Assembly (NCBI RefSeq): GCF_000473165.1
Contig: NZ_KI421504.1
Coordinates: forward strand, 3,981,070-4,045,069
DNA length: 64,000 bases
Source: Leisingera aquimarina DSM 24565
Lineage (GTDB): Bacteria; Pseudomonadota; Alphaproteobacteria; Rhodobacterales; Rhodobacteraceae
Direction: 5' to 3'
Shown here: piece by piece, positions 28,639 to 57,045 of the stretch
How positions within the stretch are numbered: position 1 is the stretch's first letter
How the letters are laid out: each line of letters starts with the position of its first letter
Program-made: the position numbers and the translations under genes
Notes under the pieces: generated by a model
Database searches by the model: none
What the model saw: only the letters and a program-made list of their open reading frames with translations
Told to the model about the DNA's origin: nothing

Positions 28639-30411
28639 ATGAAAAAACTGTTTGCCGCTCTGGCGCTGCCGCTGATTGCGCTGGCCATTGCGTTCACCGC
28701 GCCTGTTTCGGCGCAAAGCAGCCGCGATGCGGTCTGGATCCAGATCGCCGCCCGCCCCTCCCTGCGCGAGGCCGAGGGCGAGGCCCGCACCTATGCCGCC
28801 CGCCTGCCGGATGTCTCCGGTTATGCGCTGGGCGGCGGCTGGTACGGTGTGGTTCTGGGCCCCTACGCCCGCGACGACGCCGAACGGGTGCTGCAGGTCT
28901 ACCGCGCCGAGGGCCAGATCCCGCGCGACAGCTTCATCGCGTTCCGCCGCAACCTGCGCAACCAGTTCTACCCGGTGGCGGCAGATGCAACTGCTCCGGA
29001 GCAACCGGCGCCCGCCCCCGCACCGGCGGCCCCTGCGGCGGCGAATCCCGCGCCGCAGCAACAGGCCGCCGTGCAGTCGAACTTGCCGGATGAGACCCCC
29101 GCCGAGGCGCAGCGCAGCGAACGCGCGCTGTCACGTGAGCAGCGGATGGAGCTGCAGGTCGCCCTGAAGGCCGCAGGCTTCTACAGCTCGTCCATTGACG
29201 GAGCCTTTGGCCGTGGCACCCGCGGCTCGATGAGCGATTGGCAGACGGCCCGCGGCTTTGAACCCACCGGTGTGCTGACCACCGCCCAGCGCCAGGTCCT
29301 GATGGATGAATACAACGCGCCGCTGATCTCGGTCGGCATGGCGCGGGTGGAAGATGCCAAAGCAGGCATCGCCCTGCAGATCCCGGCGGATGAGGTCGCG
29401 TTCGACCGCTATGAATCACCGTTTGCCCACTACGCCGCCAAGGGCGATCTGGGCGCCGAGGTGCTGCTGATCAGCCAGCCCGGCGATAAGCGCACGCTGT
29501 TCGGCCTCTATGACATTATGCAGACGCTTGAGATCGTGCCGCTGGAAGGTCCGCGCCAGCGCGGCAAGGACAGCTTCACCATCGAAGGCCGCAACAGCAA
29601 GATCGTCTCCTTTACCCAGGCCAGCCTGAAAAACGGCGAAGTGAAGGGCTTCACCCTGATCTGGCCGGCCGGCGACGAAGACCGCCGCACACGCGTTCTT
29701 GCGGCGATGCAAGCCAGCTTCACCCGCCTCGAAGGGGTGCTGGACCCGGCAGCTGGCGGCGATGCGGTGCAGAGCATTGATCTGGTCTCGGGCCTGGAAA
29801 TCCGCAAGCCGAAACTGTCGCGTTCCGGTTTCTTTGTCGATGGCGACGGCAGCGTGCTGACCACCTCCGACGTGGTGGCGGGCTGTACCCGGATCACATT
29901 GGACCACGGCTATCAGGCGGAAGTGGCGGCTAACAACACCGCAGACGGCATCGCCATCCTGCGCCCCGTCCAGGCGCTGGCGCCTGCCGCGGTTGGTGAA
30001 CTCAGCGCCGCCTCGCCGCGGCTGCAGTCTGAGATCGCTGTTTCCGGCTTTTCCTACGAGGGCGTCCTGGGCGCACCAAGCCTGACCTGGGGCAAGGTCG
30101 CAGACGTCAAAAGCCTGGATGGCGACACCGGCGTTGCCCGCCTGGAGCTGGCAGCCCAGCCCGGCGATGCAGGCGGTCCGGTTCTGGACAGCACCGGCGC
30201 TGTTCTGGGGATGCTGCTGCCGCGCACAATCGAAGGCAAGCAACTGCCCGAAGGCGTCAGCTTTGCCGTCAACGCCGAAGCCATCCGCAGTGCGCTGAAC
30301 ACCGCAGGCATGACCCCGGCAGCAAAGAGCGCGTCAGCAGGCAGCTTGCCCAATGCCGCTATGACCCGGCTGGCGTCCGGTATGACCGTGCTGGTCAGCT
30401 GCTGGGAGTGA
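28639..30411 (+). CDS. SPOR / peptidoglycan-binding / inactive trypsin-like protein
   Basis: This 590-residue exported protein has a signal peptide (cleavage near Ala25), a SPOR-like domain (about 30-112), a Pro/Ala linker (115-150), a peptidoglycan-binding fold (about 163-228, QVALKAAGFYSSSIDGAFGRGTR), and a trypsin-like domain (about 385-565). In the last, the expected His of the TNAHVV block is Asp411 (TTSDVVAGC) and the expected Ser of GDSGGP is Ala511 (GDAGGP), while Asp436 of DGIAIL remains. It should bind denuded glycan and wall but not cleave as a serine protease. A scaffold or envelope-division role is inference. Confidence 0.85.
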   Translation: MKKLFAALALPLIALAIAFTAPVSAQSSRDAVWIQIAARPSLREAEGEARTYAARLPDVSGYALGGGWYGVVLGPYARDDAERVLQVYRAEGQIPRDSFIAFRRNLRNQFYPVAADATAPEQPAPAPAPAAPAAANPAPQQQAAVQSNLPDETPAEAQRSERALSREQRMELQVALKAAGFYSSSIDGAFGRGTRGSMSDWQTARGFEPTGVLTTAQRQVLMDEYNAPLISVGMARVEDAKAGIALQIPADEVAFDRYESPFAHYAAKGDLGAEVLLISQPGDKRTLFGLYDIMQTLEIVPLEGPRQRGKDSFTIEGRNSKIVSFTQASLKNGEVKGFTLIWPAGDEDRRTRVLAAMQASFTRLEGVLDPAAGGDAVQSIDLVSGLEIRKPKLSRSGFFVDGDGSVLTTSDVVAGCTRITLDHGYQAEVAANNTADGIAILRPVQALAPAAVGELSAASPRLQSEIAVSGFSYEGVLGAPSLTWGKVADVKSLDGDTGVARLELAAQPGDAGGPVLDSTGAVLGMLLPRTIEGKQLPEGVSFAVNAEAIRSALNTAGMTPAAKSASAGSLPNAAMTRLASGMTVLVSCWE

Positions 30412-30475
30412 CCGGCTGGCCGTCATTCGTGTCATGCCCGCGGTGCCTTCAAAGGGCGGCAGCTCAATCACAGGC

Positions 30476-30630
30476 AGGTGCTCCCGCCCGGCAACGGGCC
30501 TTATCAGGCCCTATGCCCGTTGGGCATAGCACCGTGCCAGTGCACGGTGCCGCGCCGCGCATTTGCGCGGCGCCCGGCCCAAACCCGCCAAGGGGGCTGG
30601 CGCAGCCAGGCACCTGCGGGCGCGGGAGCT
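30476..30630. repeat. Composite intergenic repeat A (convergent half-elements)
   Basis: The plus half has CTCCCGCC (30481-30488), hairpin GGGCCT/AGGCCC (30496-30511) and CGTTGGGC (30518-30525), then a 9-bp stem (30529-30537 with 30542-30550). A 10-bp stem (30552-30561 with 30564-30573) separates it from the minus half: GCCCAAA (30577-30583), hairpin GGCTG/CAGCC (30595-30607) and GCGGGAG (30622-30628). CAACGGGC at 30492 could alternatively pair with GCCCGTTG at 30515. It fills the gap between two convergent stop codons. See copies at 40573, 43103 and 56728. Confidence 0.8.
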
Positions 30631-40547: not shown

Positions 40548-40572
40548 GCACTGTAAGGACAGCGCCCGGTCC

Positions 40573-40738
40573 GGGGGCTCCCGCCGGTCAAACGCCATTC
40601 TTGCGAACGGCTCTTCCCGTTGGGCCTAGTCCTTTCCGCCCCGCAAGGGCCTGAAAGGGCACGCCGCGCAGATGCGCGGCGCAGGGCCCAAAGCCGCCAG
40701 GCGGTCCGGCGCAGCCGGGCTGATGCAGCTGCGGGAGA
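40573..40738. repeat. Composite intergenic repeat B (convergent half-elements)
   Basis: The plus half has CTCCCGCC (40578-40585), hairpin GCCATTC/GAACGGC with one mismatch (40594-40611) and CGTTGGGC (40618-40625). Inner stems are CCTTTC/GAAAGG (40631-40658) and CGCCGCGCA/TGCGCGGCG (40662-40681). The minus half has GCCCAAA (40686-40692), hairpin GTCCGGC/GCCGGGC (40704-40720) and GCGGGAG (40731-40737). It lies between convergent apt and the FAD oxidase gene. Confidence 0.8.
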
Positions 40739-40759
40739 TCTTGGGAATGCCCGGGCGGG

Positions 40760-42178
40760 TCAGCCGGCCCTGAGCACCGCGCCAGGATTCATGATGCCGT
40801 TGGGGTCCAGTGCCTGCTTGATTGCCCGCATGGCCGCCAGCTTGGCCGGGTCGCCATAGCGTTCCAGGTCACCCGTTTTCATCCGCCCGACCCCGTGCTC
40901 AGCACTGAAAGAGCCGCCAAAGGCATGAACCAGATCATGCACCGCCGTTTTCACTGCTTCACGCATGTGCCTGAACTGGTCGCGGGACTGCCCCTTTGGC
41001 GGGAACACATTGTAATGCAGGTTGCCGTCCCCCAGATGGCCAAAGCAGTTGATGCGGAAATCGCCAAGGCCTGCGACCACCTCTCTGCCCCGTTCGATGA
41101 AGGCGGGAATATCCGAGATCGGCACTGAGATGTCGTGGCTGGAAACCGATCCGATTGCCTTGTTGGCCAGCGGAATATTCTCGCGCACCGCCCACAGCGC
41201 CTGCCGCTGGGATCCGGACTGGGCAATCACGCCATCCGCAACCAGTCCTGCCTTTTCGGCGGCTTCGAACAAATCTGCCAGAGCGTCCTCAGCGACCACG
41301 CCCTGCGGCAATCCCAATTCGATCAGCACGCACCACTCGGGCGCCTCGGCAAACGGCTGGCGGATCTCCGGCAGAGCCTCCGCCAAAAACGCCAGACCTT
41401 GCCGGTGGATCAGTTCAAAGGCACTGACAGTTTCACCGGCGTGATCACGGGCCAGAGCCAGCAGCGCAATGGCAGCAGCAGCGTCCTTCACTGTGAACAG
41501 CGCGGTTCCCTGCGCGACAGGGACCGGCAACAGCTTCAGCGTGGCGGCAGTGATCACCCCCAGCGTGCCCTCGGCTCCGATCAGCAGGTTTTTCAGGTCA
41601 TAGCCCGTGTTGTCTTTGCGCAAACGCGACAACCCGTGCCAGATGTCTCCCGAGGGCAGCACCGCCTCCAACCCCAGGCAGAGATCGCGTGCATTGCCGT
41701 AGCGCAGCACGTTAACGCCGCCGGCATTGGTCGAGAGGTTCCCGCCGATCCGGGCTGATCCCTCTGCCGCCAGCGACAGGGGAAACAGCCGCCCTGCCCC
41801 TTCTGCCGCGGCCTGGACATCCGCCAGAATGGCTCCTGCTTCGGCAATCAGGACATTTTCCTGCGGGTGAACGGACCGGATTGCCGCCATCCGTTCCAGC
41901 GACAGCACCAGTGGCGCCGGGCCGTCCGGCATTACCTGGCCACCGACCAGGCTGGTGCCGCCGCCATAGGGCACAACCGGCACCCAAGCGGCACTGGCTT
42001 CGCGAATCAGAAGTGAGACTTGCTCAGCTGTTTGCGGCAAGGCCAGCACCCCCGCCTGCCCCTGGTAGCGCCCGCGCGGTTCCTCCAGATAACGCGGCTC
42101 TGGCGGCCGCAGCACGCCTTCCGGCAGCAGGTTCGAGAGATGGTTGGCAAAGGCAGTATCTGCGGGGTTCAGCATCAT
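40760..42178 (-). CDS. FAD-linked oxidase, GlcD/D-2-hydroxyacid dehydrogenase type
   Basis: This 472-residue flavoprotein has an FAD_binding_4 domain (about 40-225) with VPVVPYGGGTSLVGG and GGNLSTNAGGVNVLRYGN, and a FAD-oxidase C domain (about 230-470) with GHLGDGNLHYNVFPPKG, then SAEHGVGRMKTGDLERY and LDPNGIMNPGAVL. It resembles D-lactate or D-2-hydroxyglutarate dehydrogenases that pass electrons to quinone or ETF. The substrate is not fixed by sequence. The MBL gene lies 41 bp upstream. Confidence 0.92.
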   Translation of the reverse strand: MMLNPADTAFANHLSNLLPEGVLRPPEPRYLEEPRGRYQGQAGVLALPQTAEQVSLLIREASAAWVPVVPYGGGTSLVGGQVMPDGPAPLVLSLERMAAIRSVHPQENVLIAEAGAILADVQAAAEGAGRLFPLSLAAEGSARIGGNLSTNAGGVNVLRYGNARDLCLGLEAVLPSGDIWHGLSRLRKDNTGYDLKNLLIGAEGTLGVITAATLKLLPVPVAQGTALFTVKDAAAAIALLALARDHAGETVSAFELIHRQGLAFLAEALPEIRQPFAEAPEWCVLIELGLPQGVVAEDALADLFEAAEKAGLVADGVIAQSGSQRQALWAVRENIPLANKAIGSVSSHDISVPISDIPAFIERGREVVAGLGDFRINCFGHLGDGNLHYNVFPPKGQSRDQFRHMREAVKTAVHDLVHAFGGSFSAEHGVGRMKTGDLERYGDPAKLAAMRAIKQALDPNGIMNPGAVLRAG

Positions 42179-42219
42179 GCCCTATCCATGCCGTAAGTGG
42201 CACGGGCTGGCAAGGCAGG

Positions 42220-43065
42220 TCACTCTTCTTCAGCTAGGTACTTCGGCTGCAGCACATGGATCGTCGGGCGGCTGGGCAGGCTGCGCAGGGAGAGCGTAAG
42301 GGCGCTGTTGCCTTCATTCACGACATCAAACTCAGGCCCGATCCGGGCCAGGAAGCGCTGCAGCGATGCGTCACTGAACCAATGCATCGGAATTATGACG
42401 GAGGAACGCAGCCGCCCCAGAACTTCCAGCATCTGATCCAGCGGCAGGGTTATGCCGCCATCCACCGCCGCCATCACCACGTCGAGCCGCCCCAGCGCCG
42501 CATATTGTTCCGGGGTCGGCACATGGTGGAGATGACCCAAATGGCCGATACAGAGGCCAGCCGCCTCGAAAACGAAGATTGAGTTGCCTTGCGCTTCCAC
42601 GCCTCCGAACATGTTGCGGATGTCAGTGGAGACATTGCGGATCAGCATTTCGCCAAGGTCCAGATGGTGTTCTATCCCGCCCCCAAGCGGCCCCCAGCCC
42701 CGTAACACATGGGGAATGGCTGGATCGGGATGCGCCGTCCAGTGGGTTTCATGGGCGTGGTTCATGGTGACCACATCCGGGATCAGCGGCGCAGCGCCAG
42801 TGAAGCCCGTGAAATCGGTAACCACATTCAGCCCGCCTTCGGTGCGCAGCAGGAAGGAGGCATGCGCGATGTAGCGGATCTGCACGCTGTCCTGGGCAAC
42901 CGGGTCCTGCCAACTGGCTTGGTGCAGATACTCCAGGCCAGGGGTTGCCCCGGCCAGTGCGATACAATGGCTTGCCCGCCGCTCCTGGGCCTGGAGGGCA
43001 GTGGTACAGAGGATCAGCCAAAAGAGACAGCAAAAGCCGCGCATGAAGCAGGTTCTAGGGCGCAA
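42220..43065 (-). CDS. Exported metallo-beta-lactamase-fold protein, UlaG-like
   Basis: This 281-residue protein has an N-terminal signal peptide (start at ATG 43065, or 43044 giving MRGFCCLFWLILCTTALQA). The fold is seen in YIAHASFLLRTEGGLNVVTDF, then NHAHETHW with His103, His105 and His108, GHLGHLHH (about 186-193) and a late PMHWF. The classic HxHxDH has Thr in place of Asp, so the second metal site may be altered. Probably a periplasmic hydrolase of unknown substrate. Confidence 0.78.
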   Translation of the reverse strand: MRPRTCFMRGFCCLFWLILCTTALQAQERRASHCIALAGATPGLEYLHQASWQDPVAQDSVQIRYIAHASFLLRTEGGLNVVTDFTGFTGAAPLIPDVVTMNHAHETHWTAHPDPAIPHVLRGWGPLGGGIEHHLDLGEMLIRNVSTDIRNMFGGVEAQGNSIFVFEAAGLCIGHLGHLHHVPTPEQYAALGRLDVVMAAVDGGITLPLDQMLEVLGRLRSSVIIPMHWFSDASLQRFLARIGPEFDVVNEGNSALTLSLRSLPSRPTIHVLQPKYLAEEE

Positions 43066-43102
43066 ACCGCAGTTGTCAGCCCCCAGGGCGGAAAATCGCG
43101 CC

Positions 43103-43302
43103 GGGCGCGCTCCCGCCTGTTCCAGCAGAATTGAAAATTCTGCCTCTCAGTTGGGCGTGGCGCCGGGCCTGCGGCCCGGCGCAGCCATGGCAGGCCGCGA
43201 AGCTCTTTCCGGCCGAAAGACCGGGTGGCGCCGCACCGCAGGTGCGGCGCCACCCCCAACGGGAGCGGGGCATTTCAATGCACCAGCGACGGGCGGGAGC
43301 GC
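43103..43302. repeat. Composite intergenic repeat C (convergent half-elements)
   Basis: The plus half has CTCCCGCC (43110-43117), perfect hairpin GCAGAATT-gaa-AATTCTGC (43125-43143), GTTGGGC (43150-43156) and a 10-bp stem (43160-43169 with 43173-43182). The minus half has a 15-bp perfect stem (43223-43237 with 43241-43255), CCCAACG (43255-43261), hairpin GGGGCATT/AATGCACC (43267-43284) and GGCGGGAG (43292-43299). This is the clearest of the four copies. It ends 23 bp from the RimJ-like gene's stop. Confidence 0.85.
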
Positions 43303-43324
43303 CCGGCTGCCTGTGCCTCTGCGA

Positions 43325-43915
43325 TCAGGCCTGCCCGGCCAGTGTCTTGCCCCGCCGGTCGTGGCGCAGCGAAGCGTACAAAACATGGGTCCGCCACCGG
43401 CCGTTGATCTGAAGATAGGACTGAGCAACGCCTTCGTATTTGAAGCCGGATTTTTCCAAGAGACCGCGGGAGGCTTCGTTTTCTGGCAGGCAGGCGGCCT
43501 CGATCCGGCTGAGATCCAGCTTGCTGAAGGCATGATGCACCACCGCGCCGATCGCCTCGCGCATGTAGCCGTGGCGGGCAAAGGGCAACCCGGTCCAGTA
43601 CCCCAGCGTTCCCGCCTGGGCCGGTCCGCGGCGGATGTTGTCCAGCGTGATTGCACCCGCCAGCATATTGTCGGACCGCCGGATCAGGAACAGCGGCAGC
43701 GCCGTGCCCCCAGCCACCGAACGGCGGGCCCAATAGACCCGGTTGGTGAACGACTTGCGGCTGAGGTGGTCCGCCGCCCAGCTGGGCTCCCACGGCGTCA
43801 AATACGGCTGGCTCTGCAGCCGCAGCGCTGCCCAGCCGTGAAAATCCGCATGCACCGGCGGCCTGAGAGTCAGGCGTTCGGTTTCAATGCGGACCTTGCG
43901 GCGGTTCAGCAGCAT
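43325..43915 (-). CDS. RimJ/RimL-type GNAT acetyltransferase
   Basis: This 196-residue GNAT protein has the RimJ-like opening IETERLTLRPPVHADFHGW, the strand YWTGLPFARHGYMREAIGAVVHHAF and the block RIEAACLPENEASRGLLEKSGFKYEG. RimJ/RimL enzymes acetylate the N-termini of ribosomal proteins, and paralogues have other targets. The ATG overlaps the M16 peptidase stop (TGATG), making it the last gene of the extended cox-thrC run. Confidence 0.92.
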   Translation of the reverse strand: MLLNRRKVRIETERLTLRPPVHADFHGWAALRLQSQPYLTPWEPSWAADHLSRKSFTNRVYWARRSVAGGTALPLFLIRRSDNMLAGAITLDNIRRGPAQAGTLGYWTGLPFARHGYMREAIGAVVHHAFSKLDLSRIEAACLPENEASRGLLEKSGFKYEGVAQSYLQINGRWRTHVLYASLRHDRRGKTLAGQA

Positions 43916-56727: not shown

Positions 56728-57045
56728 GGGCGCTCCCGCCGGTTCCAGGCGCATTGACATGCGCCCTTACCGTTGGGCCCGGCGCCGCTAACGCGGCGTG
56801 AACCATGTCCTGCGCGCTTCCTTCTCTGTTCTGCAGCGGGTCAAGGGCGGCTCTGCCGCTGCGTCAGCGGCTTGCCCTTGACGCGGCGCAGAACAGTTTC
56901 ACTCTCGCGAATGCCCAATAAGTGCATAGCTGCCCTTATTGGGCTTCTCAGCAAGACTTTCTTTTGCGCCGTAGAGCGGCGCCACGCCCAAGGCTGATGG
57001 AGCATTTGCCAGAGGCAAATGCTCCGGGAAGGCGCGGGAGCCTCC
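56728..57045. repeat. Composite intergenic repeat D with central cruciform
   Basis: This fills most of the 444-bp gap before scoA. The plus half has CTCCCGCC (56733-56740), hairpin GGCGCAT/ATGCGCC (56748-56765), CGTTGGGC (56771-56778) and CGCCGC/GCGGCG (56783-56798). The center has a two-part stem: GTTCTGC (56828) with GCAGAAC (56888), and inside it GTCAAGGGC (56840) with GCCCTTGAC (56874). Next is GCCCAATAAG (56913) with CTTATTGGGC (56935). The minus half has GCGCCG/CGGCGC (56966-56982), GCCCAAG (56986-56992), a 12-bp hairpin (56999-57025, loop AGA) and GCGGGAG (57034-57040). Confidence 0.8.

Follow-up and report, generated by a model that had tools for sequence, protein, structure and literature searches.

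What are the CTCCCGC and GTTGGGC motifs that recur in pairs, with hairpins between them, in the gaps between genes of Leisingera aquimarina DSM 24565? We addressed this question starting from a 64,000-nt stretch of contig NZ_KI421504.1 (hereafter the window), for which a preliminary description had reported four composite elements, each carrying CTCCCGC..GTTGGGC followed by the inverted set. All four were located at the places given there (Table 1). A covariance model recovered six of the eight window halves, and the right halves at 30578 and 40687 were found to represent a second subtype, GCCCAAR..GCGGGAG (R). The elements had also been described as starting 23-65 bp from a stop codon; the distance stands, but at 43103 the near stop codon lies to the right, where it ends a minus-strand gene (43325-43915) 25 nt off the right half, and the left neighbour is a minus-strand gene whose start lies there. 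At 30481 the left distance to the stop codon is 69 nt. Composites occupy two of the five convergent gaps in the window, two of the 30 tandem gaps and none of the nine divergent gaps.

Table 1. Half-units and nested repeat of the four composites, in window coordinates.
Feature	Position	Strand	Basis
Left half-unit, site 1	30481..30525	+ (CTCCCGC strand)	sequence and covariance model
Right half-unit, site 1, R subtype	30578..30628	-	sequence
Left half-unit, site 2	40578..40625	+	sequence and covariance model
Right half-unit, site 2, R subtype	40687..40737	-	sequence
Left half-unit, site 3 (flagged element)	43110..43156	+	sequence and covariance model
Right half-unit, site 3, left-half subtype	43254..43299	-	model match 43249-43299, 46.3 bits
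Left half-unit, site 4, 29 nt past the stop codon of a topA-like gene	56733..56778	+	sequence and covariance model
Nested second repeat, GGTCAAGG..CCTTGA module inside the long composite	56839..56881	+	pattern
Right half-unit, site 4	56987..57040	-	weaker model match 56981-57040, 30.6 bits

Copy number and host range

The exact pattern CTCCCGC-N(5-35)-GTTGGGC occurs 70 times in the 5.34-Mb genome, against two matches for the reversed control; in a few of these 70 matches, which may be due to chance, the spacer is unusually short. When the spacing between the boxes was set to 22-38, the counts were 74 and 2. All copies but one lie on the 4.25-Mb chromosome contig (69/70), with a single copy on the remaining 1.09 Mb. 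A covariance search, which the preliminary description had proposed as a check, did find further copies. The model, for which 60 halves of the host genome served as the training set (among them the four left halves of the window), gave 87 matches in that genome, 39-132 in nine other copy-rich genomes and none in eight copy-poor members of the family (150 candidates scored per genome).

Within the host's genus, the pattern is present in all 21 genomes searched, at 38-115 copies each (control 0-5). Across the Rhodobacteraceae, at least one match was found in 124 of 295 genomes, mostly as background, and 24 genomes, including that of the host and of one genus mate, carried at least nine copies and at least three times the control count. 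The highest copy number among the 295 genomes was 142 (genome G073), and the reversed control reached 13 in one genome. A scan of named genomes returned, among the matches listed, Leisingera, Phaeobacter, Ruegeria, Tritonibacter, Tropicibacter, Epibacterium, Shimia and others, together with isolated matches in unrelated taxa that resemble chance. Three contigs titled Nocardioides marinus DP1N28-1 (L073, L131 and L135) also match the pattern. Strains with similar DP names are Leisingera (L163) and Seohaeicola (L077), so this assembly may carry the wrong label or contain contaminating sequence.

Structure of the unit

In each unit a hairpin of about 47 nt is succeeded by NNGGC and then by a GC-rich second hairpin. 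The 60 halves from the host genome align over 55 columns; the two boxes, having been the selection criterion, are invariant, and near-invariance extends to C8 and to the GC of NNGGC. Among 66 minimum-energy folds computed for orthologous halves, 53 pair the CCC of CTCCCGC with the GGG of GTTGGGC. The two feet, which do not vary, are predicted to form the base of the hairpin and to enclose a fixed 2x2 loop. When two composites were folded whole, the outer boxes paired across the composite instead. An exact GCGGGAG box 70-450 nt from the start is lacking in 96 of 156 halves (38/69 in the host genome), and in these halves pairing within the half would be the only option that the boxes can have; mutated partner boxes are missed by the exact search, so solitary units are somewhat overcounted. 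The convergent pairing that the preliminary description took to be constant therefore holds for the four window sites but not for the family. For the other 60 halves, an exact second box lies no more than 450 nt away, giving the inverted pairs and mosaics by which BIMEs are recognized. Units come in three arrangements, namely solitary units, compact pairs in which the central hairpin is common to both halves and one half is of the R subtype, and long pairs with other repeats inside.

The variable stem of the first hairpin (hairpin 1) scored 0.236 for covariation against 0.131 in shuffled alignments, and none of 500 shuffles scored as high. Sliding the structure by one column gave a nearly equal score of 0.224, and stem pairs changed on both sides were not unusually frequent (14 against 12.9 in shuffles). 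The energy of each 5' arm with its own 3' arm was far better than with swapped partners (z of -12.7 and -10.7). These computations support a stem that is free in sequence yet kept complementary, between feet that are fixed. A G-rich stretch precedes the first box in the flank logos; its pairing with the 5' box was considered and rejected as generic (z of -0.7 in the host genome and +0.6 in the others).

That the family is an artefact of GC-rich intergenic sequence was also considered. The boxes are indeed GC-rich, some matches in unrelated taxa resemble chance, and the control count reaches 13 within the family. The excess of 70 matches over two in the host genome, the absence of model matches from the eight copy-poor genomes and the covariation nevertheless refute this explanation, to which we give practically no weight. 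The composites belong to a real repeat family of a known general kind, apparently unnamed and found in numerous marine bacteria of the Roseobacter type.

Strand carrying the structure

How the reading direction of a structured RNA can be told is the subject, judging from the available excerpt, of PMC1892782. For hairpin 1, the reverse complement of the CTCCCGC strand folded better in 134 of 156 halves and the given strand in 21. The preference was found in convergent gaps (80/92), in tandem gaps with the element in sense (27/28) and in tandem gaps with the element in antisense (21/25), and right halves showed the same sense (22/24 R-type and 24/24 left-like halves, some of them also among the 156). 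As a control, 29 of 30 tRNAs folded better on their known strand. DNA folding parameters returned the same preference (144/156), so the structure may be borne by RNA or by single-stranded DNA.

Mismatches point the same way. Non-Watson-Crick pairs inside hairpin 1 that have three flanking Watson-Crick pairs comprised, in 200 halves, 4 G.T, 20 A.C and 16 others on the given strand; with two flanking pairs the counts were 23, 65 and 177, compared with about 34, 38 and 165 in shuffles, and the bias had the same direction in all gene contexts. Terminator-like control hairpins had 50 G.U, 20 A.C and 49 other pairs, and tRNA acceptor stems had 10 G.U (18.7 expected) and one A.C (11.7 expected). Unpaired internal-loop bases of the given strand were 82% pyrimidine (860/1044). 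A stem pair at 43110 varies among species, being A-T in five, A.C in seven, G-C in four and C.C in one, and never G.T. Other counts are less uniform: in basal pairs of fixed register both G.U and A.C are under-represented (36 and 30 among 936 cells, with 87 and 78 expected), and hairpin 2 leans the opposite way in energy (94 against 57) and in a looser count (G.U 153, A.C 115), with a strict count of 7 against 15. We consider that the strand bearing the structure of hairpin 1 is probably GCCCAAC-hairpin-GCGGGAG, opposite to the strand read in the preliminary description.

Gene context and persistence

Gene context was assigned with a custom codon-usage gene caller. The 69 halves of the host genome comprise 41 in convergent gaps, 15 tandem sense, 11 tandem antisense, one divergent and one inside a called gene; for 87 halves from other records the corresponding numbers are 51, 13, 14, three and six. 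The box starts at a median of 27 nt past the upstream same-strand stop codon in the host genome (57 halves) and 18 nt in the other records. Gaps bearing an element were convergent in 39 of 64 cases in the host genome and 67 of 108 elsewhere, against 10 of 154 and 59 of 485 element-free gaps, in a non-random sample of gaps, since the loci were chosen for their elements. REPs are likewise found in convergent and tandem gaps near gene 3' ends, and the available excerpt of PMC3733652 describes them with this same gene-end placement. In the other genomes, terminator-like hairpins were rarer in convergent gaps with an element than in those without (12/67 vs 23/59, p 0.01). The host genome gave 13 of 39 vs six of 10, which is not significant, and in tandem gaps elsewhere the contrast was reversed (9/37 element-bearing vs 31/296).

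We compared the four window sites across 20 genus mates, seeking left halves with a slightly relaxed box pattern. A left half was present at the orthologous site in 21 of 21 genomes for 40578, 18 for 30481, 17 for 43110 and 10 for 56733; at the last of these the other 11 genomes mostly have a different sequence after topA, within a compared stretch that is too limited for them to be read as absences. The feet are 0.984-1.000 identical between orthologues, values raised by the detection rule (all 21 genomes passed it at the first of these sites), and the arms are 0.70-0.84 identical. Fourfold sites of a neighbouring gene have a median identity of 0.60 (10-90%: 0.52-0.76); the spacer ahead of the box is 0.34 and 0.52 identical at two sites. 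Between orthologues the arms change compensatorily around near-invariant feet. What genome G310 is missing at 43110 is precisely the left unit, a loss that can be put down to excision or to slippage at a short GGCGC repeat. The family would mostly be inherited vertically. At 30481, inspection by eye showed a terminator-like hairpin between the stop codon and the element in most relatives; the host genome lacks it (window 30411-30480).

Comparison with known elements

Consistent with the preliminary description, which knew of no name for the elements, the window had no Rfam match above the gathering score (five sub-threshold matches fell in 40560-43320), and our literature searches found no paper naming such a family in Rhodobacteraceae. 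Its suggestion of a REP/BIME-like or structured repeat family is borne out by copy number, 3'-end placement, inverted pairs and covariation. In the broad sense of REP, these are short palindromic repeats with many extragenic copies, and we support filing them as a new REP/BIME-like variant. They resemble GTAG REPs and BIMEs with RAYT, as portrayed in the excerpt of PMC3733652, in being high-copy extragenic hairpins that form inverted pairs and follow genes in both convergent and tandem gaps. GTAG REPs differ in having a GTAG foot, a RAYT and a shared stem sequence, whereas here several copy-rich genomes have no RAYT, the stem is free and the unit is longer, with a second hairpin. No GTAG tetranucleotide was seen at the foot in the flank logos of these box-selected halves, whose feet are CTCCCGC and GTTGGGC.

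The same excerpt presents the CGTC REPs as alphaproteobacterial, including Neisseria dRS3 and Rickettsia RPE, and without an associated transposase, with the same placement at gene ends, all of which recalls the present family (PMC3733652). It gives them a CGTC tag, stems of 8-9 bp whose first positions are AT, and a tail resembling CCA. The present units have CTCCCGC and GTTGGGC feet, internal loops and a length of about 47 nt, and the alignment of 60 halves departs from that description in tag, stem and tail, so we rejected this assignment as far as the excerpt defines the class.

Two other candidates were set aside. An intrinsic terminator does not fit, as the logos show no T run on either side of hairpin 1; the 3' edge of hairpin 2 was read by eye. 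Integron attC sites have RYYYAAC and GTTRRRY feet paired in one hairpin and lie in cassette arrays. The likeness is that GCCCAAC fits RYYYAAC and that conserved feet flank a variable folded middle, but GCGGGAG does not fit GTTRRRY, and the copies are scattered rather than arrayed.

Function and mobility

The position of units at gene ends, their fixed feet and compensated stems, and their persistence together argue for a role at the level of the host, and placement and conservation would fit the role at transcript 3' ends that the preliminary description had raised. Our preferred reading, to which we assign a probability of about 0.5, is of a REP/BIME-like family, mostly vertically inherited and without a RAYT, that forms a reverse-complement-strand structure at gene ends, between convergent genes. 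The computations support units that, single or in inverted pairs, remain at gene 3' ends across long spans of evolution; selection would see the folded strand GCCCAAC-hairpin-GCGGGAG; and the hairpin may shield transcript 3' ends and, as an insulator, keep transcription out of the opposite gene. If true, this reading would bring to light a widespread repeat family in a much-studied marine group, exemplify REP-like elements that are maintained through their structure and not by a RAYT, and yield a strand-specific prediction on gene-end RNA. Several observations count against it: the strand bias is as strong in tandem sense gaps, where the better-folding strand would be antisense; hairpin 2 leans the other way; basal pairs avoid both wobbles; the one-column slide scores almost as well; outer boxes pair across whole composites; the terminator contrast is not significant in the host genome and reversed in tandem gaps elsewhere; and most relatives have a terminator-like hairpin before the element at 30481. 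It is unlikely, in our view, that the family acts genome-wide through the strand antisense to the preceding gene, as a structure-conserved folded RNA or single-stranded DNA at gene ends that blocks head-on or antisense transcription from entering genes.

A less probable alternative is that the family is mobile and non-autonomous, with some enzyme spreading it as folded single-stranded DNA (or RNA); the strand bias would then mark the active strand and the 3'-end placement would reflect target choice and survival. Its patchy distribution, the large copy-number differences between genera, the hairpin variants common to several copies within G073 and a strand bias independent of gene context all favour such mobility, as does the missing left unit in G310, which slippage could also explain. 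Orientation relative to replication (origin at about 0.8 Mb and terminus at about 2.9 Mb, from the GC skew of element loci) also shows a leading-sense excess among solitary units (29/38) and convergent-gap halves (29/41, p 0.012), but over all 68 placed halves (46 vs 22) it is not significant against gene orientation (p 0.066). For an IS608-like enzyme, moreover, the lagging-strand template would carry the other strand. Near-confinement to the chromosome contig and persistence at orthologous sites with constrained feet further oppose this explanation, and the transposase-mobilised origin entertained in the preliminary description did not hold for a RAYT: in a profile search of 50 genomes, Y1_Tnp was no commoner with the repeats (6/28 copy-rich vs 5/22 copy-poor genomes), several of the copy-richest genomes had no match (none in G073, G200, G295, G303 and G310), and the loci, of about 3.3 kb, of the host's three IS200-type TnpA copies (L009, L010 and L011, alike by eye) contain no paired boxes. 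A RAYT is not needed now to keep the family; some other mobiliser, past or present, may be involved. One of the three IS200-type copies has an internal stop. We regard as quite improbable a DNA-level element, either a cruciform or a protein or gyrase site absorbing supercoiling between convergent genes. Convergent enrichment and the strand preference under DNA parameters agree with it, but a cruciform extrudes both strands and by itself explains neither the excess of A.C over G.T nor the fixed orientation to the stop codon.

Other repeats in the composites

The exact TGCTGAGAAG..CTTCTCAGC module had no match, though looser forms of it can be made out by eye within long composites. A second double-hairpin repeat, GGTCAAGG..CCTTGA, occurs in or near long composites; its pattern has 12 matches in the genome against six for the reversed control, so that several of the 12 are probably chance. 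Besides the window copy in Table 1, copies lie at G000:C1 464653, 498691, 2638341 and 3211892.
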